From Candidatus Woesearchaeota archaeon (lineage in GTDB: Archaea; Nanobdellota; Nanobdellia; Woesearchaeales; GW2011-AR4): DNA of 56,085 nt. The stretch covers positions 98,940 through 155,024 of the forward strand of contig JACPBQ010000004.1 of NCBI GenBank assembly GCA_016180235.1, written 5' to 3'. The position numbers and the translations under genes are program-made. Each line of letters starts with the position of its first letter. The first letter of the stretch is position 1. A model generated the notes under the pieces. It saw nothing but the letters and a program-made list of their open reading frames with translations. It had not been told where the DNA came from and did not search any database. Shown here piece by piece: positions 8,272 to 40,565 of the stretch.

Positions 8272-8769
8272 TTGGCTGATAAGGGTACTCATAAGAGTAG
8301 AGAGGAGCTTCTTTCTAGTTTTGACAGCCTGAGCAGGGATGAAAAAATAGAGCTGATTGCTTCTTTGATGCTTTCCCTCAAGGAAAAAGCTTCCAGGGAT
8401 TCTGTGCCGGTCTCTATTTTTGACAATGACAAACTGAGCATCCTTGAAGCCCTTGTCAAGTATATGAAGGAGAACCTCAAGATGAGGTTTGTTTTGATCG
8501 GCTCAATGCTAAAAAGAAGCGACAAGACAATATGGACCACATACCAAAAATCAAGGCAGAAAATGCCCATGCCTTTTTCTTCATCTGTTTCTGACATCAA
8601 TATCCCAACAGAAAAATTCTCCAACAGGAAATTCACCACTTTCGAAATACTTGTTGACCATCTGAAATCAATCAATCTGACAAACCATGAGATAGGCGTA
8701 AGGCTGCACAGGGATGACAGGACAATATGGTCTGTGTACGACAGGACAAAGAAAAAGAAAAATGGCTAA
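8272..8769 (+). CDS. tandem helix-turn-helix DNA-binding regulator
   Basis: The protein has 165 residues. After an N-terminal helical segment of about 45 residues come two similar units, SIFDNDKLSILEALVKYMK to SDKTIWTTYQKSR and KFTTFEILVDHLKSINLTN to DDRTIWSVYDRTK. Each contains a helix-turn-helix ending in an R/K-x-x-x-T-I-W-x-x-Y recognition-helix pattern. Proteins of this kind are common in DPANN genomes and are presumed transcription factors. The start is TTG with GAGG seven bases upstream. Its end overlaps the adhesin start by eight bases, so the two are probably translated together. The palindromes at 8044-8244 are likely targets. Confidence 0.75.
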   Translation: MADKGTHKSREELLSSFDSLSRDEKIELIASLMLSLKEKASRDSVPVSIFDNDKLSILEALVKYMKENLKMRFVLIGSMLKRSDKTIWTTYQKSRQKMPMPFSSSVSDINIPTEKFSNRKFTTFEILVDHLKSINLTNHEIGVRLHRDDRTIWSVYDRTKKKKNG

Positions 8770-23700: not shown

Positions 23701-24913
23701 AAACATCTTCAATTCGTCAATTATAAACACATTTACAGTAGCCAATACAGCGCCAAATGCAAGCAATATAGCCAATGAAACAATAATAACCACGGGAACG
23801 AACCTTACCTTAAACTTCTCATCGGCATCTGATGCTGATTCGGATACAATATACTACCTTATATTTTATAATTCAAGCAGTGATGCGATACTGCTAACTA
23901 ATCTTACAGCACAAAGGAGCTTTACCACTAACCTAACAGCCAATGCTAATTACAGCATTTTCATAAACACCACAGATTATTTTAGTGCTCCTATAATGGG
24001 CAGTTTATTTAATTTTGAGTTTAATGCCACAATCACAACACCACCAATATCGGAAGAACCAAGCGGAGGAGGTGATACCGGCGGAGGCGGCGGTGGAGGG
24101 GGCGGAGGAGCCGCAGGCGGAGGCGGCGGAGGCGCTATAATAAGCCAGGAGGAAGATTTCAGCGTCAGCCCAGGCAGCATCAAGACAAAACTTGTATTGG
24201 GAGAAAGCAGCGAACAAACACTTACAATAACAAATACAGGTGATGCTGACCTTACTGTCTTGCTGTCTGTGGACGGTGTCAGAGATTACCTGTTCCTGTC
24301 AGACAGTTCATTGAGCCTTGATGCCGGACAGTCTGCTGATGTCACCATAAATTTCATAGGAAAGAAGGTGGGAAGCTTCACAGGAAGGATACTTGCAAGG
24401 GCAGATGGCATCGAGAAGGAGATTCCGGTCATAATAGAATCCATATCAGAGAAAGTATTGTTTGATGCGAAGCTCGACATACCCACAGCTTACGCTGTTG
24501 TAAGCCCCGGAGGCACCTTAAAGAGCCAGATAACGCTTCTTAATGTGGGAGCTCCGGAAAAAGTGGATGTTGTTGTCACTTATCTGATCAAAGACTTAAG
24601 GGGAAATGTTGTTTACCAGGAAACAGAGACGTTTGCGGTTGAGAAGCAGGCATCTTTAGCAAAATCATTCAAAATTCCGGAAAGCCTCGAGGAAGGAAGC
24701 TATGTTGCAATAATGGAAGTAAGGTATGCTGACAGCTTTGCTGTTTCCTCGCAATTGTTCGAGGTAAAGGAGAAAAAGAGCATAACCGAGCAGATAGTGG
24801 CAAAGAATACAGCTTTAACCATGGCCATGGCGCTTGTGCTCATAGTATTTGTCATTGTTATGCTGTCCAGGCTCATTCCAAAGAAAAAAGCAAATGACAA
24901 GAGAAGAAAATAA
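8762..24913 (+). CDS. giant multidomain adhesin-like surface protein (5,383 residues)
   Basis: A membrane-anchored extracellular protein with a signal-anchor (residues about 14-35) and many N-glycosylation sequons. In order: acidic linker and cadherin-like repeats (about 215-620); a coiled coil (about 663-743); a discoidin (F5/8 type C)-like domain (about 1100-1250); four LamG-like jelly-roll domains (about 1660-1820, 1960-2170, 2476-2690, 2760-2993; pattern I-D-E-[LV]-x-x-W-[NK]-R); a hydrophobic hairpin (about 3280-3335); many Ig-like modules; three 101-residue repeats (about 4690-4992); a poly-Gly hinge (about 5100-5126); a CARDB/Ig-like domain; a C-terminal membrane helix (about 5350-5372) and a basic tail. 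The Met at 8762 gives the signal-anchor and overlaps the HTH gene. LamG and discoidin domains bind glycans, so a role in contact with a host or neighbour cell is likely but inferred. Confidence 0.9.
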   Translation: MAKIPIFHREVEHKILLEALAVFSIFALLLAGVYVMEPAITGFATVTKHLNYTDVLSLEFNESGEYSWNIQNIGDLKSIKIDGSKNKQGNAKVYIENNGIKYLVFDSSQLVKKSGGIFGITGFAVLEIDEISAEVDGTLTQEQEDLLNLLISDINDTRNDVEIEIEAEEGEVQTDAVGVTSQQNELVNDLSSLLENAAEKIKIKVEAEFEKEEEGDDEEPEEEQNNAPIWNSDIDSFDVNSTTAINLNEHYYDADNDTLTYSSSSVENVSITINDGIIALAPDDEIDDTKPVTFAAYDGINITYKTVSLVIYTIKDIPINETNETTINETTSNETAEKIINISLEYGDDESYDADNDGIEELNGVIDFKTANTEFSWEADKDKLCTRYEVSSLDNEESTFLCYGSGNCCAFVELASSREPWNDSLYLTYGGYGSTFDNIVYAQVLHVDYNLSLENPYTDIAYSSWANLSAGFEKDLIEFENVCVDTCLVSGFNSSSYKIIVEIENTTLKIDNIDYSIEQRITNDNPALIKNIDNISLVENTNYTLDLSGYFLDNDNDTLVYSNFETANISIRFENNLAYIIPDIGFIGNRFTYITANDSYGSVASNIFKIEVNASGTPRVQLGKPVRWKETILINATNETVKLSIPKAASNITLIGSLNETARTIQDNEIKVIDKGKNKTKDIFEKGKELDKVKRKISILEEARNDEAEKVVIEDEEVRKEEIDSKISELESDETELENELAGTSLIAGAVVAEVITEEIPSNETIIEINETIDSVTIEYITEPPYAIEKGINDNLKQIKIISETGYTDVLAFTDIKESNKDAIKLYWVKDTGKEELADIDYLDTNLDGLIDRLEWVIPHLSNQTFEVSIDILNIQSYPTVGGNWTVRFNTTGVGNLTILGSNGTTYSELYNDNEATIDDLVPLALLCNDYEYYDRNNLINNFNFYIILKNNSKVDLADTIGKSLNISGIYVEDYSCNGTGYWTSQVLTEGVHTQQFNFSGQIAYANNFASVVGTTSNLSNKFVDDDSTDFEQGNLSNNTITGTPYFLKLQQKDSLSYQTLVNGAADEFEDQTGTSADNSTGETYDATSDYYTSSPGTGTYASTDEVPDMTSATAPSGEVTSSTAGRCGEGFCNWNMFDDDPDVFFGATTPTLPVWVQYQFPSAKIIGRYTLTSRTGAAEQMASAWDFSGSNDGSTWTNLDTQSGITSWTGGDKKTFTTASTGSFTYYRINVSAMQASTSLSIAEMEMLNFTPDSPNNMSLVSNIFPASSQPDSATIDIWEEDIDAVTLNTDLKAYVSRDAGTTWSQATLAANRNENVTTGRLLRGTADLSSQPSGTSMKWNLTVNNSKELRIHGVGLTWGENGINMSVALDFATATTYYKSGNFTSRAFDANKTVNWTYISWQNLTPVKTNLTLYTRTSADNATWSAWRQHGTSPSPINSNNRYIQYKAVLNTSDTSVTPLLLNATLNYSVISNLSIWDDTDTLVRVVTQPIAFYANFTDFVNTINGSGINCSITFNDTGTFIAPVNMSFDPSNGLYSYNHSSANPGTFIANVTCDATVLGYNLVQVLEQYTVYPSLNITVNLNVTLTTASQPIAVSGHINLSNGTNVSNNVIRVFLNESELLNPHNVTDDSDTDFNKGVLNTTKVFGSGGSANISLLESHAVVFDGANDFLTRGADLTGNADGKLGTVSVWVKFNNVNGVYQRIYDSQGTISNIQMDTDNTIRFYFGSGTIQAFSATKYNNNSGWIHILASWNLNVPVFNLYINDVDDEAAGSTETNANIDYTRIEHTIGAADEGTPKLDGSLSQLYMNFAEYLNISNESNRRKFIDENGNPVDLGWNGSLPTGTAPIIFLNGTSDSFITNKGSGGGFIDNGTLTNSTDKYFAKNGTGRKGNFTSQAFDSGNLVNWTYISWEQEAPYQKEIGRATGDNNDATLEDPYINTSGLVLLMHFNNESVFSENTTLAYDFSADANSGKTEINNGTIYNGAYSNITDRKFGNASINLDGSDDQVNISNEGYYDTLSNFTVSAWVLTHKTGAQVIATKSSVNNGNGWELRLSGTNGFFSGMFTSSGNQVTNTPASPVLSTNRWYHVAAVYDETSKTIKNYLDGADYGTTGSEEGTFTGITENDAQISIGRRPDGSYWDGLIDELAIWNRSLSADEILKLYKRGALELNISTRTSDDNVTYSEWSPVYSNETLSYISQNTTARYLQYKAIFSTQDASYTPILNNITINYTGLFTDSFGNYNFTFNAPAATGAYAIKVNSTWDSTIPGENSQTLTVVSVPVIQNIYTIPTYPRKDENVTFYVNVSDEDSNILSVNFTVLHPNGSLVYNYTNGSNNGNDQNWNVTFNVSQYGTYRWNVSVYDGSGFVVNSTAQTIILMELTAALNDTAVLSATQDAVYVSGHINLSNGTNVSNNLVNVYQNGGLLSTNITEFYHNKTDDSDSDFNRSTDKNATSVRGTGGAANVTLADWDYDPDGNLSANLTAYWKLDETSSNRTDYKGSNNLRDINTVTSNPGVRENAAQFTASNSEFLNTSDNADLSTGDIDFTIAAWVYADSFSASGRSIASKGDENSQQEWNLRLDGADKPTFAISSTGGTETASVAWADALTAGRWYFIVAWHDSAGNTINLDVNNNGAVSAASGTGPSDRAGAFVIGKTDGFAVWDGRIDEVGFWKRILTQKERSILYNGTNVSSYPYVSGNTFKPYKGNFTSQALDAGGVGNWTYISWSQEAPYGKEIGRANLDNNNAPKDSGHINTSKLILLMHFNNETGENNSRFKDYSVEVNTEMAGNKPNNGTCDPAKNTCPVYNSSIRKLGDYSVTFNGKNGVRINISNSTNISGSTVNTVALWFYPRDYAANALVGQNLFSSRVTSGAGVPGGGLGIQIDWMNSNSQGTSCWIGTSGWANANYAAANTELNEWHHLVCVYDGSRITMYIDGTNVSSAAQSGGLATGFYTTWMASNAIDESPFNGSIDEVAMWNRSLSTNEVLKLYKRGVLRLNISTRTSNDNAIWSEWTPYDNETSPITRNQSARYLQYLAKFNTTDGKYTPVLHNITINYTGLFTDSYGNYNFTFNAPAATGAYAIKVNATWADTIPGENTVNLEVVTLPTNIIINASPLIQGFGQNVTLTANVTDNAAQVDNVLVEVKANGITTLNFSMALQADELWKYNFTDFTNGTYAFRVYTNSSGLFTNSSNKTFDMFVNLTIQVRTVNDNYGSNEFVNLTDPPGLEEDLGYNSQNNNIGLAIDNQNNNYQLKDNVAADKIIQKTAEASIAEKIKPVKNSYYSLLLILLVSVLLNVSIIGINIANKGSINLPLLILINLLLLVPIVYAFSGSGNDYTVGIANTPYVSVHDANASGYNISFQLNEEAYGRDNASRINATLGQIYISAGVPVQPTSTGFDGSTTDFSGQPNLQSVCNAVFENTSAGKIEYISCLNAEGMDISSNIFIRKNYAEVKARNLHSTFNRSANITLTGLDNLGYPKILKDNAECTDCSVLSWDSDTGVVKFNVSSFSIYNATEANQSKIQNNGTTNATVYLLIKVQFYNKTSSVWVDNTVMVNDSSPRTLYSNGTLVKFDSLFNGRWNTSANASYGGGTYRVFAAATDENDIVLQNLDGDNISAVFNFTINFGNPRINFTAPTPTNNSRAIGNVHVINVSVVGGGSTAIDTCTLEINNGTIEVNNGSYAAQNLTMELIGSNCNVTINTLDGYNYTLKAYVNDTTGNQNSTENLTFRENTMPEIPTLLKPLNNSRISANSVVLNYTAQDNDTDSIIYNVYFDTNANPADLVYRGTSKTFVVDTGSTGTYFWKAQADDTYENSSNSTVFQFTKNTAPPTPFVITPNLTGIKLRGGQTYNISWDNSTSDADGDTVKINLLYSTDSGVTFPNGIASGRTNNGTYDWLVPSIDTDKARVQAVANDSVEFSSDASDNDFIIDSTPPVITLDNPVNGSGFTNGTFINLTITDLLSGVSNVSWNNGSFNAPNRTDFNGTFDINTSGWAVGEVNITVYANDSAGNLISAYYRFNITDVRPVVQYNVPAANQKIGGTIRVNVTGTSDLDDAPFVNFTYDGAAQNFTMTQAGTDYYYDFDTTTVSDGLLKLSVYGNDTSGRVVREDRYSTIDNTGPAIRLDSPLNDTWKNSSVKFLFTPNDASGITTCSLVINGTTNRSTVSILNGLSNNFSNIEFGEGIFTWTINCTDEVSNTGTNASGRAVKIDTIRPVITLIDPPNGSSIRANKTINFTVTDTGAGVGNVTWSNNYLLDVTSLIDAYAINTSEFPEGKTNVSIRANDSAGNIERMLLEFIIDFTPPIAEFNRPGANEIVRGIFRVNITATDALSNVSGLTFAFNGSSNFTMNRTSPEITSDYFFDWNTTNTTDKQYIMKIYGNDTANNVKFENRFAIVDNTAPAIKINSPANNSYSNTASNSFQFIPYELNELGSCTLFINGTVNATTTSLDRNMTNTITATLGDGVYRWTVSCNDTAVDTFGIHNTGSNDTNFTITVDTAFPTVNATINNTSPKINEVINISANITDETGLSSANITINFSTGRVYMNYTLSGTSQTISNATRITDSRGHVLNITVYATDTSNNVKQNSTLITVADTLGFIRIGLNSSTIRANDIVNVSGNITEEDADVSFGMAANNQTGAMVNTTFAGSGTRFNFSNAVTVTLKRNNVINFTVFYNDTSGTTIQNSTLLTVADTAPTFELANNNTNAKMDEVVQLSAMVNDSDTLSMVIASWNGTNGVWINISNTTSLSAGINYSVNRSVGLIRGDVIGWLFYANDSVVNAFTASSTNTFVVADTATIFTLANNNTNAKMDEVVQLSALVQDNDAVSMVIASWNGTNGAWRNISNSTSLSTNINYSVNASVGLVRGNVIGWLFYSNDSAVSTFNASAINTFVVGDTAPTFELANNNTNAKINEVVQLSSMTNDSDALSMVIASWNGSSTGAWINVSNTTSSSTGINYTVNFSVGLARGQVVGWLFYSNDSVVNIFNSSIINTFTVANTAPNASNIANETIITTGTNLTLNFSSASDADSDTIYYLIFYNSSSDAILLTNLTAQRSFTTNLTANANYSIFINTTDYFSAPIMGSLFNFEFNATITTPPISEEPSGGGDTGGGGGGGGGGAAGGGGGGAIISQEEDFSVSPGSIKTKLVLGESSEQTLTITNTGDADLTVLLSVDGVRDYLFLSDSSLSLDAGQSADVTINFIGKKVGSFTGRILARADGIEKEIPVIIESISEKVLFDAKLDIPTAYAVVSPGGTLKSQITLLNVGAPEKVDVVVTYLIKDLRGNVVYQETETFAVEKQASLAKSFKIPESLEEGSYVAIMEVRYADSFAVSSQLFEVKEKKSITEQIVAKNTALTMAMALVLIVFVIVMLSRLIPKKKANDKRRK
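15485..18003 (+). repeat. 50-bp exact direct repeat between LamG units
   Basis: Bases 15485-15534 and 17954-18003 look identical over 50 bp (beginning GGCAACTATAACTTTACG) inside otherwise diverged coding sequence following LamG units 2 and 4. This points to recent duplication or gene conversion within the adhesin gene; about 2.5 kb separate the copies. Confidence 0.8.
22832..23740 (+). repeat. three tandem 303-bp units (101 residues each)
   Basis: Units start at 22832, 23135 and 23438, exactly 303 bases apart. Each encodes D-T-A, then N-N-N-T-N-A-K, E-V-V-Q-L-S, S-M-V-I-A-S-W-N-G and G-W-L-F-Y-x-N-D-S. Blocks of 40 or more bases are identical between units 1 and 3, so expansion is recent. 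More diverged relatives precede them. Confidence 0.9.
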
Positions 24914-26512: not shown

Positions 26513-26674
26513 ATGGTCAAGATAACATTCACAGGAAAGCAATATGTCGTAACTATCCCGAAAGACATGGTGGACTTGATGGGATGGGACAAGAGCACAG
26601 AGGTAATAATCTCAAAGTATCCTGACAAGGATTTTCTTTTTGTTGAGCAGATAAAAAAGAGAAAAAGCCAATGA
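26513..26674 (+). CDS. AbrB/SpoVT-type DNA-binding protein
   Basis: The protein has only 53 residues: MVKITFTGKQYVVTIPKDMV, then LMGWDKSTEVIISKYPDKD. This matches the swapped-hairpin AbrB fold (Q-Y-V-V-T-I-P-K, followed by G-W-x-K-x-x-x-V-I-I). Such proteins act as dimers or tetramers, as antitoxins or transition-state regulators. Its stop overlaps the ATG of the next gene (ATGA at 26671-26674), so it is co-translated with a surface protein rather than with a toxin gene. It probably autoregulates through the repeats upstream. Confidence 0.8.
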   Translation: MVKITFTGKQYVVTIPKDMVDLMGWDKSTEVIISKYPDKDFLFVEQIKKRKSQ

Positions 26675-27900
26675 TAAAGATAATAAATGCCAATAGCGGG
26701 AAAATAAAAGCAAACGATAGTACAGATAAGACAATAATTAACCAAGAAGACTATAAAATTCCCTCCAATAAACAAAAAATGATTAGGCTTGAAAATAATA
26801 GGATCATAGTAAATAAAAATATTGTTTTTTTAATCGGCATTTTTTTAATATTGGCCGCTTCTGTTGTTGCCCAGCAAACACTGCCTACATTAATTTCACT
26901 GCAGGGCAAATTGACAAACACTTCCACTGGAACGACTATAGTGACTGCCGACTTAAGGGTAAATATTTCAGACACTTCCGGGGCAACTGTGTGGAACGAG
27001 ACATTTTTAGGAGGAGTGAGCAACGGCTTCTTTGACCTTTTATTGGGAAGCAACATAGATAATCCATTAAGCCTGACTTTTAACCAGGACTATAATATCA
27101 GCATATATGTCGGAACTTCTGGAACGCAGATTGGAGGTTCTTACAGATTCAGGAGCGGTGTTGGAGGAATTAATCCAAGCAATATAACTGCCGGGAATTT
27201 CAGCGCTTTGGGGAATTTCTCTTTTGGCGGCAGCTTGTTTGTGGACAAGACCAATAACAGGGTTGGGATTGGGACGACAGCTCCTAGCTCTTCATTGGAT
27301 GTAAATGGAAATGTTGATTTGGGAGCAACTTCCGGAACTTTATTTGTTGATTCGGCAAATGCAAGGGTTGGGATTGGGACAACCGGACCAAGTGATGTTT
27401 TGGATGTTATTGGCAGCGCGAGATTTTCGAGAAGCCTGAATGCTTCTGAGATAAATGCTACTAAATTAAGGATTAATAATAATTTATTTGCCAATGGCAG
27501 CAGGGTTGGGATTGGGACATCTGCTCCAGGAACGATACTGGAAGTAAGCGGAAACATCTCAACAACACCATCAAACACCAGCGTAGTGAAGAGTTCGGGC
27601 TTTATCTCCAACATAGGCGGCTTACTATCAAATTTCGGCTCTGCTGATGGCGGCTTTTATTTCATCAATAATGAAAACGGAGCGATGAGTCTTGTTACTG
27701 CCGGAGCAGACAGGATAAGAATAGACCAGAATGGCAACACAGGAATAGGCACAAATGCCCCGACAAAAAAACTAAGCGTGAACGGGACTACAAATGCATT
27801 GACAGTTGATCCATCTGCAAAAGACCCCACAATAAACACGACGGGGCAGAACATAACGATATCAAGCAGCTCAGGAAGCGTCATAATACAGCTTGGATAA
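26671..27900 (+). CDS. repeat-rich surface/fibre-like protein
   Basis: The protein has 409 residues. A polar N-terminal 45 residues precede a signal-anchor (IVFLIGIFLILAASVVA), then a beta domain (ISLQGKLTNTSTGTTIVTADLRV, typical of proteins preceding fibre repeats), then several copies of R-V-G-I-G-T-x-x-P-x-x-x-L-D-V-x-G-x, known from phage tail-fibre-like and cell-surface proteins with S74-peptidase ends. No S74 catalytic domain follows here. The protein ends SGSVIIQLG, shared with the tiny next gene. The frame also has a Met at 26779 close to the signal-anchor, a possible alternative start. It is likely a trimeric surface fibre (inference). Confidence 0.75.
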   Translation: MIKIINANSGKIKANDSTDKTIINQEDYKIPSNKQKMIRLENNRIIVNKNIVFLIGIFLILAASVVAQQTLPTLISLQGKLTNTSTGTTIVTADLRVNISDTSGATVWNETFLGGVSNGFFDLLLGSNIDNPLSLTFNQDYNISIYVGTSGTQIGGSYRFRSGVGGINPSNITAGNFSALGNFSFGGSLFVDKTNNRVGIGTTAPSSSLDVNGNVDLGATSGTLFVDSANARVGIGTTGPSDVLDVIGSARFSRSLNASEINATKLRINNNLFANGSRVGIGTSAPGTILEVSGNISTTPSNTSVVKSSGFISNIGGLLSNFGSADGGFYFINNENGAMSLVTAGADRIRIDQNGNTGIGTNAPTKKLSVNGTTNALTVDPSAKDPTINTTGQNITISSSSGSVIIQLG

Positions 27901-27902
27901 AG

Positions 27903-27910
27903 TTTATATA
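27903..27910 (+). promoter_or_regulatory. TATA box for the gene at 27936
   Basis: TTTATATA is centred about 30 bases before the ATG at 27936, directly after the previous stop codon. This supports independent expression of the 47-residue membrane protein and the gene behind it. Confidence 0.5.
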
Positions 27911-27935
27911 GGATTTTAACAGCATATACTATAAA

Positions 27936-28079
27936 ATGAAGAGAACAAGCAAGGACAGGGTAATAATTACCTTAAGCCTGGTAATAGTGCTGCTGCTGGT
28001 ATTAATTATATTTTTGTTTATATATTTTAACACAGGCATCACAAGTTCTGATGGCAGCATAATAGTCCAGCTGGGGTAA
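27936..28079 (+). CDS. 47-residue single-span membrane protein
   Basis: A basic start (MKRTSKDR), one transmembrane helix (VIITLSLVIVLLLVLIIFLF) and a short extracellular tail ending DGSIIVQLG make up the whole protein. The end nearly repeats that of the preceding surface protein (SGSVIIQLG). A TATA box and a two-base gap to the next gene support it as real. It could be a membrane docking or assembly partner for the fibre protein; this is inference. Confidence 0.6.
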   Translation: MKRTSKDRVIITLSLVIVLLLVLIIFLFIYFNTGITSSDGSIIVQLG

Positions 28080-28081
28080 AA

Positions 28082-28780
28082 ATGGGGATAAGAATAAAAA
28101 AGAGGAATATTTTATTTTCATTAATGGCCTTGATTTTAATTTCCGGCCTGTTTTTGGCTTTAAAGGCAAACTATGCTGCCGCGGTGTGCTCAGGATCAGA
28201 CTTATGGTCGCTCAAGATATATGACCCCAGCAGAAACTTAGTCAGAAATTCTTCTATAATCACAATTACACCTACTGGAGGCGTTGAATGCGATACACCA
28301 ACGACTGTTAGTACAAACTTAGATGTATCGTGTCAGACAAGCGGGACCTATGTGGCAAATGTAACATGCTATGGCTGCGCCGTTATGTCGAATGTTGCTG
28401 ACACAAATGTTATAACTTGCCAGGCTCCTAATGCCAACAGGCTTATAATCAAAAATTCTACTGGAGGCAACATAGCAGCATTCGATGAGAAAGGATACGT
28501 ATATTTAAGAGGCTTTAACTATTCAAACCAGGCAGTCCTAAACCCAAATCAGAACAGCTATGTGTTCATGAATAATACCGGAAAGGTTGTGGCTTATATA
28601 AACAGCAGCGGAGACCTTATGCTTGCCGGCTCAGTATCAATGTCACAGGCGACTGTAAGCGCGCCATTGAACAGCTTTATAATAAGAAACGATACAAGGA
28701 AAGACGTTGCATACATAGACAGTTCAGGCAACCTGGTCCTCAGCGGGGTAATATACCACAACTGGACGGACACAATATAA
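28082..28780 (+). CDS. secreted repeat protein
   Basis: The protein has 232 residues: a basic N-terminus and hydrophobic signal segment (residues about 9-33, ending at YAAA), a Cys-containing beta domain (about 35-115), then three repeats of about 35-50 residues with the pattern [IV]-[IM]-x-N-x-T-x-x-x-[IV]-A-[YF]-[IF]-x-x-x-G-x-[LV]-x-L-[AS]-G (near residues 120, 160 and 200). Related repeats occur in surface proteins of DPANN archaea and in some bacterial fibre proteins. It starts two bases after the small membrane gene and probably shares its promoter. Confidence 0.7.
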   Translation: MGIRIKKRNILFSLMALILISGLFLALKANYAAAVCSGSDLWSLKIYDPSRNLVRNSSIITITPTGGVECDTPTTVSTNLDVSCQTSGTYVANVTCYGCAVMSNVADTNVITCQAPNANRLIIKNSTGGNIAAFDEKGYVYLRGFNYSNQAVLNPNQNSYVFMNNTGKVVAYINSSGDLMLAGSVSMSQATVSAPLNSFIIRNDTRKDVAYIDSSGNLVLSGVIYHNWTDTI

Positions 28781-28807
28781 ATTAAAATTTGAATTTTGCT
28801 ACAGAAA

Positions 28808-29308
28808 TCAGCTTATTCTTTTGGCTCTATCAATCAGGCTCAGCATCTTTTCCTTAGTCAGCTCATGGCCCGTGTCATTTTTCCACAGCCTGTAGGCTTT
28901 TTCAAGGTTAAAAATAATATCTTCAAAAATCCTGAAATCCCCATAGGCCCTTATTGAGAACATAAGCTCGACCCATCCAGTCAGATCATTTTTATTATAG
29001 CTCAGAGATTTCATAAAGCAGCCTATGGACTTGTTAAAATCACCCATTATATAGTACATATTTCCCAGCAAAGAAAAATGGTCTGAAATTTGCTTATTAT
29101 TGCCATTATTTGATTTAATCAGCATAGTTAATATATTTATGGCTTTATTAATGGCTGTTTTCAGCTCATCATCTTTATTGTAAAATCTTTGCAGCAAGTC
29201 ATAGGAAAATATCTCATTCCATTTTGACTCAAGATTTATTTCAAGCCTGTTTGTGGAAAAGCCCAGATAATTTTCCAGTTCATTTATTTGAGATTCTATT
29301 TGGTTCAT
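28808..29308 (-). CDS. TPR-like helical repeat protein
   Basis: The protein has 166 residues, soluble and all-helical. One clear tetratricopeptide unit is DHFSLLGNMYYIMGDFNKS followed by SIGCFMKSLSYNKND; flanking helices are probably degenerate TPR. It follows the DUF483-like gene after six bases on the same strand, so the two are very likely co-transcribed. TPR proteins act as adaptors, so it may assemble the neighbouring Cys-rich and radical SAM proteins, which is inference from proximity only. Confidence 0.65.
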   Translation of the reverse strand: MNQIESQINELENYLGFSTNRLEINLESKWNEIFSYDLLQRFYNKDDELKTAINKAINILTMLIKSNNGNNKQISDHFSLLGNMYYIMGDFNKSIGCFMKSLSYNKNDLTGWVELMFSIRAYGDFRIFEDIIFNLEKAYRLWKNDTGHELTKEKMLSLIDRAKRIS

Positions 29309-29314
29309 TTTTGA

Positions 29315-30313
29315 CTAGTCAAAATTTATGGCAAACCATTCCGGCTTTTTTTCAATGGTTTTCAAGGCCGAGTTATCATCCCTTATCATTATTTTGCCTT
29401 TGGATATTATAATGTTGTTTCCTTCTCCAACATAATCAAAAAAATCGATTGCGTCTTCCGGACGCGCCGTGTTTTGAAAATATTGGCATCTTTTGTAGTC
29501 TATACTAAAATTATCATCGTGCTTTGCCATAAAGCCGTCGAATAGTATAAAATTCCTCTCAGAAAATACAAGAAGCGGCTTTTTCAGGGCTTCAGCTGCC
29601 TTTTCAACAAAATCCGGCTCAACATCCATGATTTTTTCCTCTACTTTCTTCGCAAACATAATCGTTTCCTGGCAGCGATATGAACATGGCAAATGGTGGA
29701 TGAGCGAATATGTGTGGTCCATTAAAAAATTGTTGCAATAATAAGATCCTCTGGCTTTCCTGTTTATTGCAGGGGTATTTTTAAGAGTCTCGTAAGGATT
29801 GCTGTACAAGTGCCAGTTGTTGTATTTTCTGAAGAAATCAATGCAGCAGTTAGGGAATCCCAGGCATCTGCCAAACCTTATATGGTCTATGTAAGGCTTG
29901 TTTGTCGCCCTGTTGTTTATGACAGCGGGGTACCAGCCGAATTTCTTTGCCTCCAAAGCCATGCTTCTGGTTTTTGAGACAAAGACATGGACATTCCCAT
30001 TATCTATATTTTTGCCAAATTTTATTCCTTTTGCATAGGTGGTAGTAATGTTTTCACCACCTATTATTCCTTTCTTCCCGTCTTTTGGAGCGATAAAAAT
30101 GATGTCAGGGACCACTTCCAAGCCATATTTGCTGCACATATCGGCATATTCTTGATATTTATCAGCACTAACCCAGTCATCGAATAGCGGCTTGACCCCC
30201 AGCGCAACTGCAGCAAACATGGGGTATTGCAATGAGCCATTAACGTCATAGTACTCCCTGCCAAATTTCTTAGGGATGTATGGATTTAGTATGTTGGAAA
30301 CCAAGAGTGCCAT
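29315..30313 (-). CDS. Cys-rich DUF483-like protein
   Basis: The protein has 332 residues from the Met at 30313, which has GGGGGT five bases upstream; an in-frame Met at 30343 adds ten hydrophobic residues. The central region has the patterns C-L-G-F-P-N-C-C-I-D-F-F and H-L-P-C-S-Y-R-C, which I recall from the archaeal/bacterial DUF483 family. The conserved Cys and His residues suggest metal or iron-sulphur binding. There is no clear membrane segment apart from the optional N-terminus. It lies beside genes typical of peptide maturation. The exact family assignment is from memory. Confidence 0.6.
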   Translation of the reverse strand: MALLVSNILNPYIPKKFGREYYDVNGSLQYPMFAAVALGVKPLFDDWVSADKYQEYADMCSKYGLEVVPDIIFIAPKDGKKGIIGGENITTTYAKGIKFGKNIDNGNVHVFVSKTRSMALEAKKFGWYPAVINNRATNKPYIDHIRFGRCLGFPNCCIDFFRKYNNWHLYSNPYETLKNTPAINRKARGSYYCNNFLMDHTYSLIHHLPCSYRCQETIMFAKKVEEKIMDVEPDFVEKAAEALKKPLLVFSERNFILFDGFMAKHDDNFSIDYKRCQYFQNTARPEDAIDFFDYVGEGNNIIISKGKIMIRDDNSALKTIEKKPEWFAINFD

Positions 30314-30461
30314 TATTACCCCCAATAAGCTATAAAATAACATATAAATATTTAATGTTTATAAATATTTTTCATATGCGCCAAAACCGGCATAATTTGG
30401 TAATTTTTATTTTTACCGGATTTCCAGAAGATTTTTAAAAAACAAGCCTTTGCCAACAGGC

Positions 30462-31694
30462 ATGCAGGAGCTAAAAAAGATATATTTCACAAAAGAGAAT
30501 GCTACTTCCTTATACAACAATTATGCCAAGCTTGCGTTCTGCGATGCTGTAAGGCTTTTGATGCGGAAAGCCCCATTAGACCAGGAAGAAAAGGATATTT
30601 TGGTCATAGCTACCGGCGAAGTTAATGACATAGAAAATTTCTACAGAAAATCCCACATAATCTACCTTTCCAACAGAATTTTATTGGAAAATGATATTAA
30701 AAAAATAGAGGCTTTAAAAAAACAATTAATTTTTGAGCTTGCCGTAGGCATTTTAGACCTGGGTTTAGAGAAAAAAGTTTTTTATCCAAATGAAGACAAA
30801 AGCCTTTTTTCACTGTACCTTAACCAGAAAGTTAATGCTAAGTTTGATTCCATTGCGAAGAACGGCAAAGTTTATGCTTTTTATAAGAATGGCAAGGAGG
30901 CCTTAAGGCTGGAAAAAAACAGACAATGCACCATAACAGAAAATGTTGATTTTCTTGAGAAAGACAAGAATCCGTTTAATGAAAACAATGACCATCCTGA
31001 TGCGCCTGTTTTTACCCCTTATGACCTGAAAAATATCCCAAAAGAAGAGTGGGTAAGGCAGTTTAGGGAAGCTTACAGCCTAATTAAGGAAAAAGTCCCT
31101 GAAATTTATGATGAAATCCATAATTTTCTCGATGCTATTGTCCCCCATGGCTATGAAAAGGGCAAGCAGCTCTCTTCCAGCTATTCAAAAAGCCCGGGAA
31201 TACTCTACCTGTCCTACACTGACAAAGACATTACCCAGGCAGAAGCAATAATCCATGAAGTTCACCACACCATCTTTAATGTCATTGCGTGGAAATATAT
31301 TCTTGCCAACAATGACAGATCGTTAAAGTACTATTCCGCTTACAGGCCTGATGCAAGGCACATACACGGCTGCTTTATCGGGCTGCATGCCTTTGTGGCT
31401 GTGCAGAATTTTTACAGGAGATTAATAGAGAGCAATGGAGATGCAAAAAATATTGAAGCATTTTTTACTTTTTACCTGAAAAATGCAAAAGTTATTGCTG
31501 TTCTTGAGAAATATGCCGATTTTACCGATGAAGGGAATTTATTATTCAACGACATAAAGACAAAATATTTCTATGATAAGGAATTTTTTTATGCGCTAAA
31601 AAATATACATAGCGCGATTTATGACGAGATTCTCCAGAAAGTTAATGAGCATCTTGAAGAGGCGAAAAAAAGGAATAAAATACTCCTACACTGA
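30462..31694 (+). CDS. HExxH protein resembling RiPP-associated peptide hydroxylases
   Basis: The protein has 410 residues. The motif H265-E-V-H-H269 sits in EAIIHEVHHTIFN. About 40 residues later comes S-A-Y-R-P-D-A-R-H-I-H-G-C-F-I-G-L-H-A-F-V-A-V, matching the R-x-D-x-R-x-x-H-G-x-x-x-x-x-x-A-F signature of the mod_HExxH domain found in bacterial RiPP clusters. Members studied there are iron/2-oxoglutarate peptide beta-hydroxylases rather than proteases. I start at 30462 because a TATA-like TTTTTAAAA (30432-30440) lies about 25 bases before; an in-frame TTG at 30450 is possible. It converges with the tandem radical SAM gene, two bases apart. Confidence 0.75.
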   Translation: MQELKKIYFTKENATSLYNNYAKLAFCDAVRLLMRKAPLDQEEKDILVIATGEVNDIENFYRKSHIIYLSNRILLENDIKKIEALKKQLIFELAVGILDLGLEKKVFYPNEDKSLFSLYLNQKVNAKFDSIAKNGKVYAFYKNGKEALRLEKNRQCTITENVDFLEKDKNPFNENNDHPDAPVFTPYDLKNIPKEEWVRQFREAYSLIKEKVPEIYDEIHNFLDAIVPHGYEKGKQLSSSYSKSPGILYLSYTDKDITQAEAIIHEVHHTIFNVIAWKYILANNDRSLKYYSAYRPDARHIHGCFIGLHAFVAVQNFYRRLIESNGDAKNIEAFFTFYLKNAKVIAVLEKYADFTDEGNLLFNDIKTKYFYDKEFFYALKNIHSAIYDEILQKVNEHLEEAKKRNKILLH

Positions 31695-31696
31695 TC

Positions 31697-33793
31697 CTAC
31701 AGCAAAAGAGCATCTGATAATCTTATCTGCGGTTCCATCGTTTTATTTTTTAGCATACCCTCATTGTTTTCTTTAAAGTTTTGATTCTGAATTTTAAATG
31801 AATCTGCTTTGCTTTTTACCGCCAATTGCAGGATTTCCTGAGGATCCCTGTCGAATACAGGCCTTGCTTCTTTGTAGCCATGGATCATGACATAATTGGA
31901 GTTTATCCCGGGGCAGATAGTTTTCAAATTGCACTCAGAGCATTGCGGCGCATAGAAAAATTCGCTCTTCCCCTCTTCTTTTTTCCATAATGGCTTTAAT
32001 TTTAAAAAAGATTCATAATCATAATCAGATTTTATCCTTAAGAAGCTGCAAACTCTCGTTTCATCAAACAAATGCCTTCTTAAATTGCTCTGATAATGCT
32101 CAAAACCCCGCAAATGACAAAGAGGCATTTTTTCTATGCGGAACGTGCAATTGCTCCCAATAATGTACTCAAAAGCTTCATGGATATATTTTTCTGATTC
32201 TGTAAAAGTAGGGACAGTCCATTTATTTTCCCATGCATTATAGATTGGATCTATAAAATTAAAGCTGAAATGCCTTATAAAAGGAAAATTTTTTCTGATA
32301 AATTGAATATGGCTCTTAAGATGCCTGTAATTGCTTTTTTGTATAACAATTGTTATATGGGTTGAAATATTGTACTTTCCCAGATTCTCCAGGCTTTTTA
32401 ACGTGTTATCATAAGTATGGGGGGCTTGTGATAATTCCCCAAAAAGCTCCCTGTCAGATGCATGAAAAGAAACATTCACTTTCAGAATTTCCCTGAATCT
32501 TGAAAGCATTTTTACCCTATCCTCCGTATGGAGAGTTGAGCCATTTGTCTGGATAGTTATTTCGTCAAAATCAAGCGATTGCGCAAGCTCCAAAATTTCC
32601 GCTAAATCCCTCTTAAGTGTCGGCTCACCGCCAGTTATCATCAAATCTGTCACGCCCTCATCTTTCATTTTGAGCATTCTTTTTTTAATTTCATCAAAAC
32701 CTAATTCCCCGCCTTTGGGGGGATTAGAGCAGAAGACGCACCTTTGGTTGCAGAACCTGTTAATTTCCAGCCTTCCGAGATTATGCTTTTTGATATTGCC
32801 GGAATAAGATTTTTCATTTTGCTTTTGGTTAGAACCATTGCTATTGTTTTCAAAACTAAGCTGATTCCTGATAAGCCCTATATATTTCTCTGGATCCTTT
32901 GTTAAAGGCATAAGCTCGTCAGTTCCATAAAGAGCTGCATAAGAGGCTTCTATGCCGGAGCAGTATTTATCAAACGAGCAGGACTTGCATTTTTCCGGCT
33001 TAATTTTATTGTAATTTGACATAAGGCTCTGATGGGCTTTTTCACCAGCCAGAGCATAATTGCGCAGCTCTCCGGAAAATTGCTCAAATCCATTCAAAAA
33101 GCACGGAGGAATGCCCAAGGTGGGGGAAGTAAAGAGGCCGATAGATTTTTTTGCGCAAAGCTCAAAAGCATTTAAAATATATGGCTGGGCTTCCGTATAG
33201 GACGGCGTTAAATCACAGCTTTTCTTATTTTCCTCGAAAGGCCGCACGAAACTTAAATTAATGTTCCTGATATTTGGGAAGATTCTGTGAATGAAATCAA
33301 TGAATATTGGCAAGTCTTTGTAATTCAATTTTGTTATTGTATGCAGGATAGCATCAAATTTTATTCCAACTTCGATTATATTCTTCATGCCTTTTATGGT
33401 TTCAATGAATGTGCCTGGTGCCTGAGTTATTGCATCTGAAATTTCGGCTTTATGGGAGTGTATAGAAACAATGCACCTGTCCAAGCCGCTATTTTTTAAT
33501 TCATTGGCATAGTCAACATCCGATAAACGAACGGCATTTGTTTCCAATACAGTTTCCTTTACCCCTATTGATTTTGCATACCTTATAAGTCCCGGCAGAT
33601 CTCCTAATGTTGTCGCTTCACCTCCTCCGCTAAATAGAACAGAATTTCCCTCATAAGCGGCTTTTTCTATCCTTTTCCTGATAGCGTCTTCTGTTGTTTC
33701 CGTCATTTTTCCTTCTTTAATCCAGTTCTGTGCCTGACAGAAGAAGCAGCTTTGGTTGCATTTGTTGTATATCTGCAAATTGACTTGAACCAT
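31697..33793 (-). CDS. tandem double radical SAM protein
   Basis: The protein has 698 residues and contains two complete radical SAM modules of similar sequence. Module 1 has C12-x3-C16-x2-C19, the GGGEAT loop near 56-61 and auxiliary cysteines C269, C272 and C278. Module 2 has C348-x3-C352-x2-C355, ITGGEPT and a second Cys set (CSECNLKTICPG). Shared blocks QAP-[GH]-T-[FY] and C-[FH]-L-x-G-F-E-[QH]-[FY] show an internal duplication. SPASM-like auxiliary clusters are typical of peptide-modifying radical SAM enzymes. The protein is soluble. Upstream lies a 40-codon ORF with a third CxxxCxxC; downstream the HExxH gene converges. Confidence 0.85.
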   Translation of the reverse strand: MVQVNLQIYNKCNQSCFFCQAQNWIKEGKMTETTEDAIRKRIEKAAYEGNSVLFSGGGEATTLGDLPGLIRYAKSIGVKETVLETNAVRLSDVDYANELKNSGLDRCIVSIHSHKAEISDAITQAPGTFIETIKGMKNIIEVGIKFDAILHTITKLNYKDLPIFIDFIHRIFPNIRNINLSFVRPFEENKKSCDLTPSYTEAQPYILNAFELCAKKSIGLFTSPTLGIPPCFLNGFEQFSGELRNYALAGEKAHQSLMSNYNKIKPEKCKSCSFDKYCSGIEASYAALYGTDELMPLTKDPEKYIGLIRNQLSFENNSNGSNQKQNEKSYSGNIKKHNLGRLEINRFCNQRCVFCSNPPKGGELGFDEIKKRMLKMKDEGVTDLMITGGEPTLKRDLAEILELAQSLDFDEITIQTNGSTLHTEDRVKMLSRFREILKVNVSFHASDRELFGELSQAPHTYDNTLKSLENLGKYNISTHITIVIQKSNYRHLKSHIQFIRKNFPFIRHFSFNFIDPIYNAWENKWTVPTFTESEKYIHEAFEYIIGSNCTFRIEKMPLCHLRGFEHYQSNLRRHLFDETRVCSFLRIKSDYDYESFLKLKPLWKKEEGKSEFFYAPQCSECNLKTICPGINSNYVMIHGYKEARPVFDRDPQEILQLAVKSKADSFKIQNQNFKENNEGMLKNKTMEPQIRLSDALLL

Positions 33794-33822
33794 TTTATGA
33801 ATTAAAACTGACTAATATTCCA

Positions 33823-33945
33823 TCATATTTTGATTTTTACTGATTTTTCTTTGTTGGATTTTTGTCTAATTGGAACAGAATCTGCACAGAAACGGCAATT
33901 TAGATTGCATAAATTATTCATTTTAACTGCATAATTGCCACCCAT
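33823..33945 (-). CDS. 40-residue ORF with a radical SAM-type CxxxCxxC motif
   Basis: The ORF reads MGGNYAVKMNNLCNLNCRFC and then ADSVPIRQ plus a basic end. The core looks exactly like the N-terminal cluster motif of a radical SAM protein but nothing follows. A TATA box at 33974-33986 puts the ATG near the transcript start, and the ORF ends 29 bases before the tandem radical SAM gene. It may be the remnant of a third module or a real mini-protein; a remnant is more likely. Confidence 0.5.
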   Translation of the reverse strand: MGGNYAVKMNNLCNLNCRFCADSVPIRQKSNKEKSVKIKI

Positions 33946-33973
33946 TTTTGTGAAATAGAAATGTATTCCTTAG

Positions 33974-33986
33974 TTTATATATATTT
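33974..33986 (-). promoter_or_regulatory. TATA box for the radical SAM transcript
   Basis: AAATATATATAAA on the minus strand lies about 30 bases before the ATG at 33945 and is the best promoter candidate for both the mini-ORF and the tandem radical SAM gene. Confidence 0.5.
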
Positions 33987-34033: not shown

Positions 34034-35528
34034 TTAGGTGTATTTCTCCGGAGTGAGTTTTGCAACGCCAGCTTCAGCTGATAAAACCCATAATGATCCA
34101 TTGAAGTATGCAACGTCTCTTATTCTTCTACCCATTATTTCATATGTCCTCATATCTGTATTTTCTTTAATCGTCTCATTGCTAAAATAAAAAATTTCAC
34201 TGTCAATGATAGTGTCATTTTCTATAATAAAGCGATGAACATGCCGACCTTGTAATCCTGCTACAAACAAATTATTGTACCAGGGATGGTTTTTGTCTTT
34301 TACAAAAACAGCTCCTCCCGGTGCAAGAGACCAATCAATAGTACAAAATACCGGGAACGTGAAATTTCTATCTTTATAATGTAATCCATCATCTTGACAA
34401 TCAACAAAACCCCATCCATAATTTGCTCCTTTCTGAATTATATTTATTTCGTCTTTTCTTGTGGATCCATGTTCTGTGGCGAATAGTTTTTTTTTATTCT
34501 GGATGCCAAGCAAGGCCCTGGGGGTTTCTATGTCCATATGAAAAGACATAGCTATTATTAAATGGATTATCAGCAGGTATTGAACCATCCAAATTCATCC
34601 GTAATATCTTTCCTCCAAGAAAACTGAGATTTTGTGATTGTATTGGTTGGTCTGTGTCTCCTGTAGTTGCATACAATTTATTATCCGGACCAATAGCTAT
34701 TCTTCCGCCTGCATGATGAGAGGTACCTGGGATTTTATCAAGTAAAACGACCTCATTACGTAATAAATCATTGCTGTAAGTGAAGCGTGAGATTCTGTTA
34801 AAAATCCTGTCTTTTCCAGAGATATTATCATATGAATAAGTGTATAGCATGTATATGTACCTATTCTCTGAGTAATATGATATATCAATCGCAAGGCCCA
34901 GTAATCCTGCATTCTGGTCAGTGATTACAGGAATTTTCGCTATGGTGTGTATGTATTTATTATGGTAATGTTTTAGAGCACCCCCCCTAGTTGTTGCTAA
35001 AAATGTGCCATCGGGTAAGAATTCAATATCCCAGCCAGATTGCACTGAATTACCAGTGTATACTTTTAAATTTGTGATGTCGGCATTCGTTTCATTTATG
35101 TTTATAGGCAGTACTGTTACAGAATATTTTTCATTTGTAATCTTTGCCCTTATATGGTTTGCATATGTTGAAATTAAATTTATGAGATTTAAGTCCTCTG
35201 TGGTATTATCACATTTTAAATCATTTAAAGCATTTATTTCAGGAATCCAGTGATTGCAGTTTTTTATGGTATGCCTTATTTTTTTTGTGGTACATTTTAA
35301 AGGTGGAGGCACTCCAGAACAATCAGTAACTGTTTTTTCAAATACAGAAAAATTGAATTCATTGGAAAGCTTCACGCTATCGTTAGTTTTATTACATTTT
35401 CCCGAACAATCTAAAACTAACCTCTCTTCTTGGGGAGAAACTTGAAATTTTAAAATTATATAAAAAATTAGCACTAAAGCGGATAATAGGAGTATAAAAA
35501 ATAGAAATTTTTTCTGAATAGATCCCAT
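34034..35528 (-). pseudogene. membrane-anchored PQQ-type aldose/glucose dehydrogenase with a frameshift
   Basis: The two frames together give one beta-propeller of the soluble PQQ-dependent sugar dehydrogenase family. The N-terminus is a signal-anchor (KKFLFFILLLSALVLIFYIIL) and a linker; the first frame then covers W-D-I-E-F-L-P-D-G, S-H-H-A-G-G-R-I-A-I-G-P-D (catalytic His region) and SYGHRNPQGLAWHPE, then TAA near 34494. The second frame continues with KKKLFATEHG, DEINIIQKGANYGWGFVD and TYEIMGRRIRDVAYFNGSL. Skipping the T of the TAA gives HPEKKKLFATEHG, the exact family spacing. Possible causes are mutation, assembly error or recoding. If functional, it oxidises sugars outside the cell with PQQ. 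Confidence 0.8.
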
Positions 35529-38024: not shown

Positions 38025-40565
38025 TTAACTTGCGTAGCCTAAAGCTTTCAATTGGTCGAGTGTTTCATCTGACTTTGCGGATAAACCACCAATGTCATCA
38101 TGATACAATTCTGAGAGCCTTTTTTCTATTAATTCTATAGTTTCAGGTGATTTATTAATGAGATTATTTTGTTCTGAAGGATCATCAAATACGTTAAACA
38201 ATTTAAAAGCAGTTCCATTCGGAAGCATTTCTAGTTTATATTTTCCTAATTTTACTATTGTGCCATTAACTTCTGCAAGCTGAATCCTATCATCTTCTAA
38301 AATTCCAAATAGATTCTTGCCTCTTATATTATCGTTATATCTTATTCCCAATGTATCAATTATTGCAGGAAAAATATCAATATTCATAACAGGCTCTTCA
38401 ATTATTTGGTGCTCATTATTCGGCAAATGGAATATCAGCGGTGTATGGAGCGTTCCATAATGGCCATTATTGTGGTCAAATACGTTATGCTCACCAAGGC
38501 TTTCTCCATGATCCGATGTTATGATTATTATAGTACTATCTGACAAATCTAAAAATTCAAGATATCTTAATAAAAACCCGAATGCGTTATCAGCTTCCTT
38601 AATATTTCCATCGTAACTTGCTTTGTACTGATCAATAATTGTTTTCGTCAGATTTAGCTTCTTTCCGAATATAACATATTTTTCAATGGGTTCTTTTTTT
38701 GAATAATAATCTAAAAGGTATTCCAGCTTATTTTCGAATCCTTTTTCTTTAATTTTTAGATTAGATGCATATAATGTTGGATTATTATATGGATTTTCAT
38801 AAAACTCCTCAAAAATTTCTTTTTCTGGGTCATAAGGAGAATGCGGCTGCCTTAAATGAACCCATAAGAAAAATGGTTTTTTTGTGTTATTAATAGCATT
38901 AAAAACTCTCAAAATTGTTTCGTTTCCTTTTTCCGGAGCCTGATAAGTTTCATCAAAAAAATCAAAACCCCGATCTAATCCGTATTTTGACTCCGCATAT
39001 TCATGGGCAACCACAGCTTTCGTAGAATAATTGTGTTTTTTAAGGATTTCAGCAATTGTTATTTCCCCTGGCTTTAAAATTATTCCATCCTTAAGAATAT
39101 TATCTTTGGCGGGAAACTTAGATGTAAATAATGAAGGAAGAGAGCATGATGTAGAGCCGCATTGGCTCAAAGAGTCTCTAAAGACATATGATGTCTTGGC
39201 AAATTTGTCTATATTTGGACTAGTATTCTTGCCGTATCCGTAGATTCCAAGATGATCTGCCCTAAGGGCATCAAAAGATATCAGAATAACATTGCAATTA
39301 CTGCAAATATAACTCTCATCAGCCTGCGGCTTTAAAAAAATAGTGGAATTACTGCTATAACTTGATTGATTTTTAGCCAATAAAGCATCGATTTTTTCTT
39401 TTGGCAGCCTGGTTATTCTGTAGAATCTTTCTCTTTTTACTTGTGCATTTATTTCCGGATTAAGCCATTCCCACACTATATTCCCATTTTTGGTAACTTC
39501 AAAAGCATGGCCTTCCATAGATTCCCCAATCAAGGTATTTCCATTAGGCAGCTTTTGAGCGGAGCCAGCTATTCGAGAAAAAAAGGACTCAGGTGGATTT
39601 GACTCATACTTCCATAAAATCTTCTTTTTAATAGGGTCTAATTCTATGACTCTGCTGTAACCTCTCAACTCCCCATTATCAAATATAAGTATATTTCCAT
39701 TATCCAGCATCCTTGGCATATGGACAAAATCCAGTTTTCCATGACCCCAGCTCCAGACAATTTCTTTAGTATCCTTATCTAGTATAACAATCAAATCAAA
39801 AAAAGACAAGCTGACCAGCCAGTTGCCTTTTTGAAAGCGCTTATCTTTTTTGCCAATTTCTGTATCAGGCAAAGATTGAACAGAATTAATATGGTAGTAG
39901 TCATAGAAAAACCGTCCGCTTTTATTATGGATTTTATTATATATAGATGAATCAAAGATAAATTTTGGCAAGTCTAGTTTAGAAGGCATATGGAATTTTT
40001 TTATGTAATTTAAGTTTTCAAAAGTTGACCAATTAGAGAGTAATTTCCCATCAGCAGATAGTTCGTATATAGTATCGAATGTAACATTCATTCCTTTATA
40101 CTCATGAGTTTCTCTGGAGATTGTCATTATATTTCCTTCAGAAGTTTCTATTAATTCGTGATGTGAAAACAAATCTTTTCTCCAGATTAAATTTGAATCC
40201 CAGCCATACCTTCCAATTGTTACATTGGTAATTCCTACAATATCATTGTTGTCTAAGATCAAAACCATTGATAAATTTTGCCAAGAATGCACTATATTCC
40301 CATCCATATCCATCAATTTGTTAGAATATAAGTTATAGCCATTAAATGAATTGGAGATATTATACCTTATAACTCCAAACTGGCTTTTGTTTATTTTTTC
40401 CTGATTTGAGGAATTTTCCGATTTAATATTCTTGAAGGTTACTGCATCAACAACCATATTATCATTCCAAATTATGCCATAAACTTTATAATTCCAGAAT
40501 TTAACGCCTAAAAAAAAGACTATGATAAAAATAATTGTTATGAAAACTTTAGTTTTTTTCTTCAT
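38025..40565 (-). CDS. arylsulfotransferase-like propeller fused to a sulfatase
   Basis: The protein has 846 residues with an N-terminal membrane anchor (residues 6-22). Residues about 60-415 form an arylsulfotransferase (ASST)-type beta-propeller: YYHINSVQSLPD, DKDTKEIVWSWG, MLDNGNILIFDNG, SRVIELD and AQKLPNGNTLIGE. Residues about 420-846 are an alkaline-phosphatase-superfamily sulfatase: NVILISFDALRADHLGIYGY, the nucleophile region S-C-S-L-P-S, ITSDHGESLGEHNVFDHNNG and a C-terminal substrate strand. The residue at the C-x-P-S nucleophile position is Ser. An enzyme that both moves and removes sulfate (or a related group) on surface glycans is suggested, but specificity is unknown. Confidence 0.85.
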   Translation of the reverse strand: MKKKTKVFITIIFIIVFFLGVKFWNYKVYGIIWNDNMVVDAVTFKNIKSENSSNQEKINKSQFGVIRYNISNSFNGYNLYSNKLMDMDGNIVHSWQNLSMVLILDNNDIVGITNVTIGRYGWDSNLIWRKDLFSHHELIETSEGNIMTISRETHEYKGMNVTFDTIYELSADGKLLSNWSTFENLNYIKKFHMPSKLDLPKFIFDSSIYNKIHNKSGRFFYDYYHINSVQSLPDTEIGKKDKRFQKGNWLVSLSFFDLIVILDKDTKEIVWSWGHGKLDFVHMPRMLDNGNILIFDNGELRGYSRVIELDPIKKKILWKYESNPPESFFSRIAGSAQKLPNGNTLIGESMEGHAFEVTKNGNIVWEWLNPEINAQVKRERFYRITRLPKEKIDALLAKNQSSYSSNSTIFLKPQADESYICSNCNVILISFDALRADHLGIYGYGKNTSPNIDKFAKTSYVFRDSLSQCGSTSCSLPSLFTSKFPAKDNILKDGIILKPGEITIAEILKKHNYSTKAVVAHEYAESKYGLDRGFDFFDETYQAPEKGNETILRVFNAINNTKKPFFLWVHLRQPHSPYDPEKEIFEEFYENPYNNPTLYASNLKIKEKGFENKLEYLLDYYSKKEPIEKYVIFGKKLNLTKTIIDQYKASYDGNIKEADNAFGFLLRYLEFLDLSDSTIIIITSDHGESLGEHNVFDHNNGHYGTLHTPLIFHLPNNEHQIIEEPVMNIDIFPAIIDTLGIRYNDNIRGKNLFGILEDDRIQLAEVNGTIVKLGKYKLEMLPNGTAFKLFNVFDDPSEQNNLINKSPETIELIEKRLSELYHDDIGGLSAKSDETLDQLKALGYAS

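Follow-up and report, generated by a model that had tools for sequence, protein, structure and literature searches.

Positions 28808-33986 of a 56,085-nucleotide stretch of DNA (hereafter the window), which forms part of a 437-kb contig in the 1.04-Mb genome of a Woesearchaeota archaeon (DPANN), encode an HExxH protein, a tandem double radical S-adenosylmethionine (SAM) protein, a DUF483-like protein and a small TPR protein. All four of these genes, reported in a preliminary description of the locus, are present there, and they raise the question of whether their products work together and, if so, upon which substrate. Our answer, held with moderate confidence, is that it represents a module for accessory tailoring within a peptide-maturation system of the His-Xaa-Ser (Hxs) type, in which the HExxH enzyme would beta-hydroxylate the repeat peptide, plausibly on histidine.

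Concerning the HExxH protein, the listed open reading frame (ORF; 30450-31694) begins with TTG, but the archaeal relative has a start in common with it (MQEL) that corresponds to the ATG at 30462 and yields the 410 residues originally described, with the HEVHH motif and the R-x-D-x-R signature in place. The protein matches the mod_HExxH family model TIGR04267 at 68.4 bits against a cut-off of 40 (E=7e-19), and a Pfam search gave no match, peptidase families included. A profile of 26 relatives retrieved SjiH (22nu, E=5e-90) and ChlH (8s5f, E=1e-18) from the PDB and no further entry. The AlphaFold model computed from the alignment of these relatives has a mean predicted local distance difference test score (pLDDT) of 80; in Foldseek its matches at probability 1.00 are SjiH-Ni (E=1e-12) and the HExxH domain of ChlB-HExxH (E=5e-10), the template modelling (TM) scores being 0.48-0.61, and the next match follows at E=0.6. 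Based on the family model above its cut-off and on the fold, the protein is predicted to be an alpha-ketoglutarate-type HExxH enzyme and not a protease. An ordinary zinc metalloprotease, acting for example in leader processing, might be suspected from the HExxH motif itself and from the family fold, which has been described as reminiscent of zincins (PMC12636437), but the TIGR04267 score, the absence of a Pfam peptidase match, significant PDB matches confined to SjiH and ChlB-HExxH (the zinc protease BepA follows at E=1.5) and the invariant R-x-D-x-R signature make this highly improbable; as a candidate identity it was ruled out by the family model and the predicted fold. Relevant to the expected chemistry is ChlBH, an alpha-ketoglutarate-dependent iron enzyme which beta-hydroxylates Asp and His of the precursor of a ribosomally synthesised and post-translationally modified peptide (RiPP) after a radical SAM cyclophane crosslink has been preinstalled (PMC12636437).

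The tandem radical SAM protein does contain the two complete modules attributed to it, each with a CxxxCxxC motif and, behind it, a C-terminal CxxCx5C group. Among NCBIfam families it scores best with HxsC4 (NF038332, 173.7 bits against a cut-off of 500) and HxsC (TIGR03977, 169.4 against 267.9), and since both scores fall well below the cut-offs we call it HxsC-like and not HxsC. The same genome has an Hxs core whose HxsC-like enzyme can be aligned end to end with each of the two halves (E=3e-35 and 1e-26).

Evidence that the genes belong together comes from a second Woesearchaeota genome, of another genus in the same family, in which Black Sea contig JADHVG010000024.1 (L100) presents the same order and orientation: surface protein, surface protein, TPR, DUF483-like, HExxH and radical SAM (26671-33945 in the window). 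Proteins of the block are about 50% identical between the two, the values being 51% for the TPR, 54% for the DUF483-like and 52% for the HExxH protein, and 62% over one, C-terminal, module of the radical SAM protein; those of the two secreted proteins are given in Table 1. Outside these limits the genes are rearranged or different, hence the block is a unit and does not reflect general collinearity, and its retention as a whole at such identity in another genus indicates that it is not a product of chance. The genes thus co-occur elsewhere, and the extent first given for the locus holds for its four genes but falls short of the conserved block, which also takes in two secreted proteins at 26671-28780. 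Likewise, the convergent transcription of the two main enzymes was correctly described, but it is kept in L100, with a 4-base overlap, and is no strong argument against a joint function. L100 additionally has a membrane TPR gene preceding the HExxH gene, and the region upstream of its radical SAM gene holds both a second DUF483-like and another HxsC-like gene. A remnant next to the radical SAM gene of the window retains a CxxxCxxC motif and is 65% identical to the start of the further radical SAM gene of L100, the intact orthologue, which there occupies the second position upstream of the radical SAM gene; because of this resemblance the block of the window genome has probably been shortened from a longer ancestral form. 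Upstream of the remnant, the TATA-box-like sequence TATATATAAA is a possible promoter of the radical SAM transcript.

The L100 genome holds the only close relative of the locus. A search of genome contigs with the single HExxH protein returned no relative, and its alignment-based repeat returned the Black Sea locus and 41 actinobacterial loci; the rest of the phylum gave weak matches only. The HExxH protein is absent from all but two of the 353 genomes of the order (those of the window and of L100), the other relatives found are distant and actinobacterial, and its gene is transcribed against both neighbours, as would be expected if the genes were neighbours by descent only, that is, if an acquired HExxH enzyme with a substrate of its own stood beside a separately working HxsC-like, DUF483 and TPR module. 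Order and orientation kept at about 50% identity, with flanking genes beyond 26671-33945 rearranged or different, speak against such a mere juxtaposition, which we consider improbable.

Turning to the substrate, the preliminary description had recognised no precursor at the locus, and the reason is that the Hxs system with its HxsA lies outside the window, 34 kb from the HExxH gene. This Hxs core (G000:C9:164972-170331; L048:9973-15332) starts about 10 kb past the right end of the window and encodes HxsA, three HxsD-like proteins, HxsB, an HxsC-like enzyme and an archaeal A24 prepilin-type peptidase. HxsA (G000:C9:164972-165571) combines a lysine-rich pilin-like leader, His-x-Ser repeats and a Peptidase_S74 domain (PF13884, 64.8 bits); its repeat core, about one third His, carries SHSSHSSHSSHSSHSS, and the HxsA3 model reaches 35.5 bits against a cut-off of 65. 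Directly behind the repeats follows a Ser-Asp-x-x-Leu-Lys motif, which we take to have a catalytic role in S74 domains. It is conserved in both HxsA-S74 proteins, that of the L100 genome being 67% identical to the one described here. Of the HxsA proteins in the surveyed Hxs loci, these two, from the HExxH genomes, alone carry S74, and a search of 193 genomes gave no further full-length match (the end of a contig truncates one HxsA of G086). HxsB scores 356.4 bits in the window genome, under the cut-off of 370, and the L100 genome has two HxsB proteins that pass it (437 and 429 bits).

Within the order, a survey with profiles of our own shows that the core HxsA-HxsB-HxsD-HxsD-A24 recurs, often together with arrays of HxsC-like genes, and HxsB is detected at E<1e-20 in 55 of 193 genomes (above the cut-off in 39); loci of the Hxs type that include a dedicated prepilin-type peptidase are common across this DPANN order. 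At the family level a full HxsB is found in 4 of 36 genomes and the HExxH protein in 2, both of them HxsB-positive, a coincidence with a hypergeometric chance of 0.0095 that is suggestive rather than strong given the kinship of these 36 genomes. Concerning the layout of these loci, an A24 peptidase and up to about nine HxsC-like genes were seen in L050, L051, L052/L053, L061, L062, L064, L066, L196, L201 and others. A common pattern in the HxsA leaders of these loci is KKKISSFLxxEEGKISK, with a hydrophobic stretch behind it. A second HxsA-like protein of 463 residues in G423 (L149:7270-8661) has the same leader and a long, different C-terminal part, with its own HxsB, HxsD and A24 peptidase adjoining.

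The locus looks like a satellite of the Hxs system and not like a stand-alone one. That its genes act together on a peptide or on a surface protein, as proposed at the outset, gains support from synteny, from the HxsC-like modules and from the presence of an Hxs repeat precursor in both genomes; what has to be given up is its independence. A stand-alone RiPP locus with a small precursor of its own was rejected, both the six-frame scan for His-x-Ser repeats and the short-ORF comparison with L100 being empty: the suggested search for a conserved small ORF yielded none in the gaps of the block beyond the radical SAM remnant.

From the observed gene identities, the fold and motif of the HExxH protein, the conserved block and the co-occurrence with Hxs, we infer a substrate, a product, an order of steps and roles for the DUF483-like and TPR proteins as follows. 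HxsA would be made with its pilin-like leader, His-x-Ser core and C-terminal S74 chaperone domain, and the HxsD-like, DUF483-like and TPR proteins would help to bind it through the leader, the TPR protein being a possible docking partner. HxsB and the HxsC-like radical SAM enzymes, the double one included, would then modify the repeat core, after which the HExxH enzyme would beta-hydroxylate the modified core using iron, 2-oxoglutarate and O2. Histidine is the most attractive target because ChlBH accepts it and because of its abundance in the HxsA core. The A24 peptidase would take off the leader, S74 would aid trimer assembly and might cleave itself off, and the product would be displayed together with the co-conserved fibre proteins. 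Taken in its full form, namely a new modified archaeal surface fibre produced by hydroxylation of the histidines of a radical-SAM-modified His-x-Ser peptide, export by way of a pilin leader and self-cleaving S74 trimer assembly, this scheme is tentative, and we judge it unlikely to hold in every part.

Several points weigh against the assignment of the locus to the Hxs system. The Hxs core is 34 kb away, and a six-frame scan finds no His-x-Ser repeat gene in the window. Most Hxs genomes of the order are without the HExxH locus, hence it is not essential to Hxs, and as both HExxH genomes belong to one family their co-occurrence with Hxs may in part reflect shared descent. The usual His or Gln of the bacterial GLL[H/Q]G motif, found in most bacterial HExxH relatives and possibly a metal ligand, is Ile or Leu in both archaeal proteins. 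Radical SAM enzymes are sensitive to O2, and HExxH hydroxylases need it.

The two secreted proteins at the start of the block provide a different candidate substrate. In this case the module would hydroxylate or crosslink their side chains before export, and Hxs would be a separate envelope pathway. Both proteins belong to the conserved block, the first being its most conserved member (67%), and full-length orthologues of the second accompany the HExxH block in both genomes and are found only there. In G321 homologues of the pair adjoin an A24 peptidase gene (that of the first protein on G321:C32), but no HExxH gene was found in this genome, whose contig ends there with the orthologue of the second protein cut off. 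The pair is moreover convergent with the TPR and DUF483-like genes and not co-directional with them, the radical SAM modules are HxsC-like, and the two proteins show no resemblance to known RiPP precursors and have no HxsA leader. We regard modification of these two proteins in place of HxsA as possible, although rather less than probable; they are candidates either for partners displayed together with the Hxs product or for the true substrates. An idea that had been entertained separately, that the second protein is restricted to HExxH genomes, was rejected, its repeats being present in 61 of 338 genomes and the truncated orthologue in a genome without a detected HExxH gene. It should also be mentioned that a 47-residue membrane peptide (window 27936-28079) and the fibre-like proteins, namely the first secreted protein and L150:5533-6510, share a C-terminal GS[VI]I[IV][QR]LG motif, perhaps an anchoring or sorting signal.

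Returning to the module that we assign to the Hxs system, its DUF483-like and TPR members score slightly below the Pfam cut-offs. For the former, PF04467 falls just under its gathering cut-off of 25 bits, for which reason the protein is named DUF483-like, and a relative in G040 passes at 30.3. L100 has counterparts of both (TPR at 2087-2584, DUF483-like at 2586-3698), and in G086 and G040 relatives of the TPR protein have a DUF483-like or an HxsC-like gene as neighbour; the relatives bear out both putative assignments. With a loose HxsC profile threshold, which may have let in other radical SAM proteins, DUF483-like genes adjoin HxsC-like genes in G040, G086, G139 and L100, occur in their vicinity in G043 and G083 and form fusions with them in G072, G033 and G120, and none of 13 ordinary DUF483 loci has an HxsC-like gene within 1.5 kb. 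Regarding the architecture of such fusions, the DUF483-like domain was seen C-terminal to the HxsC-like radical SAM domain in three genomes (L051:8888-10717, L059:3727-5508 and L201:1941-3692). The structure predicted for the window protein from a shallow alignment (pLDDT 45) is unusable, sequence searches gave no related solved structure, and a literature search retrieved no title or abstract with the term DUF483.

Table 1. Features of the conserved block and its surroundings (positions in the window; L100 is the Black Sea contig).
Position	Strand	Feature	Evidence
26671..27900	+	Secreted fibre-like surface protein, first gene of the block; repeats of type NRVGIGTTAPSSSLDVNG, C-terminus GSVIIQLG	67% identical to L100 566-1300
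28082..28780	+	Secreted protein; N-terminal Cys-containing domain, repeats of ~20 residues, C-terminus IYHNWTDTI	45% identical to L100 1363-2094
28808..29308	-	Small TPR protein, 166 aa	TPR_1 22.2 bits, below cut-off, E=1e-4
29315..30343	-	DUF483-like protein, 342 aa; conserved GxPxCC motif and second Cys pair	PF04467 20.5 bits
30462..31694	+	Predicted alpha-ketoglutarate/Fe(II)-type HExxH peptide hydroxylase, 410 aa	TIGR04267, profile, fold
31254..31268	+	HEVHH iron-binding motif, residues 265-269	H265, E266 and H269 invariant in 26 relatives
31344..31358	+	R-x-D-x-R signature, residues 295-299	R295, D297 and R299 invariant in 26 relatives; present in SjiH and ChlH
31697..33793	-	Tandem double radical SAM protein, 698 aa; two HxsC-like modules	Two Radical_SAM domains (Pfam)
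32729..32752	-	Second CxxxCxxC motif, residues 348-355	
33737..33760	-	First CxxxCxxC motif, residues 12-19	
33823..33945	-	40-codon remnant of a further HxsC-like radical SAM gene	20/31 identical to start of L100:9332-10264, E=1e-12
33974..33983	-	TATA-box-like sequence TATATATAAA upstream of the remnant, candidate promoter	Read from sequence

Elsewhere in the window, the split of a glucose/sorbosone dehydrogenase-like gene (34034-35528, minus strand) over two overlapping frames suggests either a frameshift or an error of sequencing. A surface protein of 5,399 residues with several laminin-G-like and Ig-like domains is encoded at 8714-24913 (plus strand), and a single protein joining an arylsulfotransferase-like domain with a sulfatase domain at 38025-40565 (minus strand).

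The HExxH hydroxylase family and the Hxs system are both of already known kinds. NCBIfam contains HxsA3, HxsA4, HxsC4 and HxsD-like models, hence its curators are aware of variant Hxs systems. The literature search found no paper on archaeal Hxs by title and no description of an Hxs product, and in the open-licence literature, which is weak evidence in this respect, we did not find the combination of HExxH with Hxs, its archaeal setting, the double HxsC-like enzyme, the DUF483 partner or the S74-tailed precursor. HExxH hydroxylases have been characterised recently and, in the literature found, only from bacteria; the present locus joins them to Hxs in a small-genome DPANN archaeon and names a candidate precursor and a minimal gene set for heterologous expression. 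DUF483 gains a functional context through its proximity and its fusion to HxsC-like radical SAM enzymes, and as Hxs-type loci are common in the order, a poorly known surface chemistry becomes testable. The conserved block points to an unstudied chemical decoration of a surface peptide, whose presumed chemistry is that outlined above.

Among known systems, ChlBH/ChlH of Chlorogloeopsis (8s5f) and SjiH (22nu, 22ob) have in common with the window protein the HExxH and R-x-D-x-R motifs, the overall fold and the radical SAM partnership, whereas the latter is archaeal, only ~15-20% identical, has an HxsC-like partner and carries Ile or Leu at the H/Q position of GLL[H/Q]G. PflC/PosC and BpmH are members of the same enzyme family in RiPP clusters (PMC12636437); PflC/PosC, however, act on Gln/Asn-rich precursors in Pseudomonas, in clusters with an MNIO enzyme, and no HxsC-like partner has been described. 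The actinobacterial HEXXH proteins encoded next to FxsB, as on a plasmid of Nocardia sp. NBC_01327, are likewise stand-alone HExxH proteins beside a radical SAM peptide maturase, but FxsB is annotated as cyclophane-forming, and the window has an HxsC-like double enzyme with DUF483-like and TPR proteins in its place. Compared with the curated Hxs systems (HxsA-D; TIGR03976-TIGR03979, NF038309, NF038332), the genome encodes HxsA-, HxsB-, HxsC- and HxsD-like proteins and its double radical SAM protein is HxsC-like, but the scores stay under the cut-offs, and the system is enlarged by an A24 peptidase, an S74 domain on HxsA, the double radical SAM enzyme and the DUF483-like, TPR and HExxH proteins.

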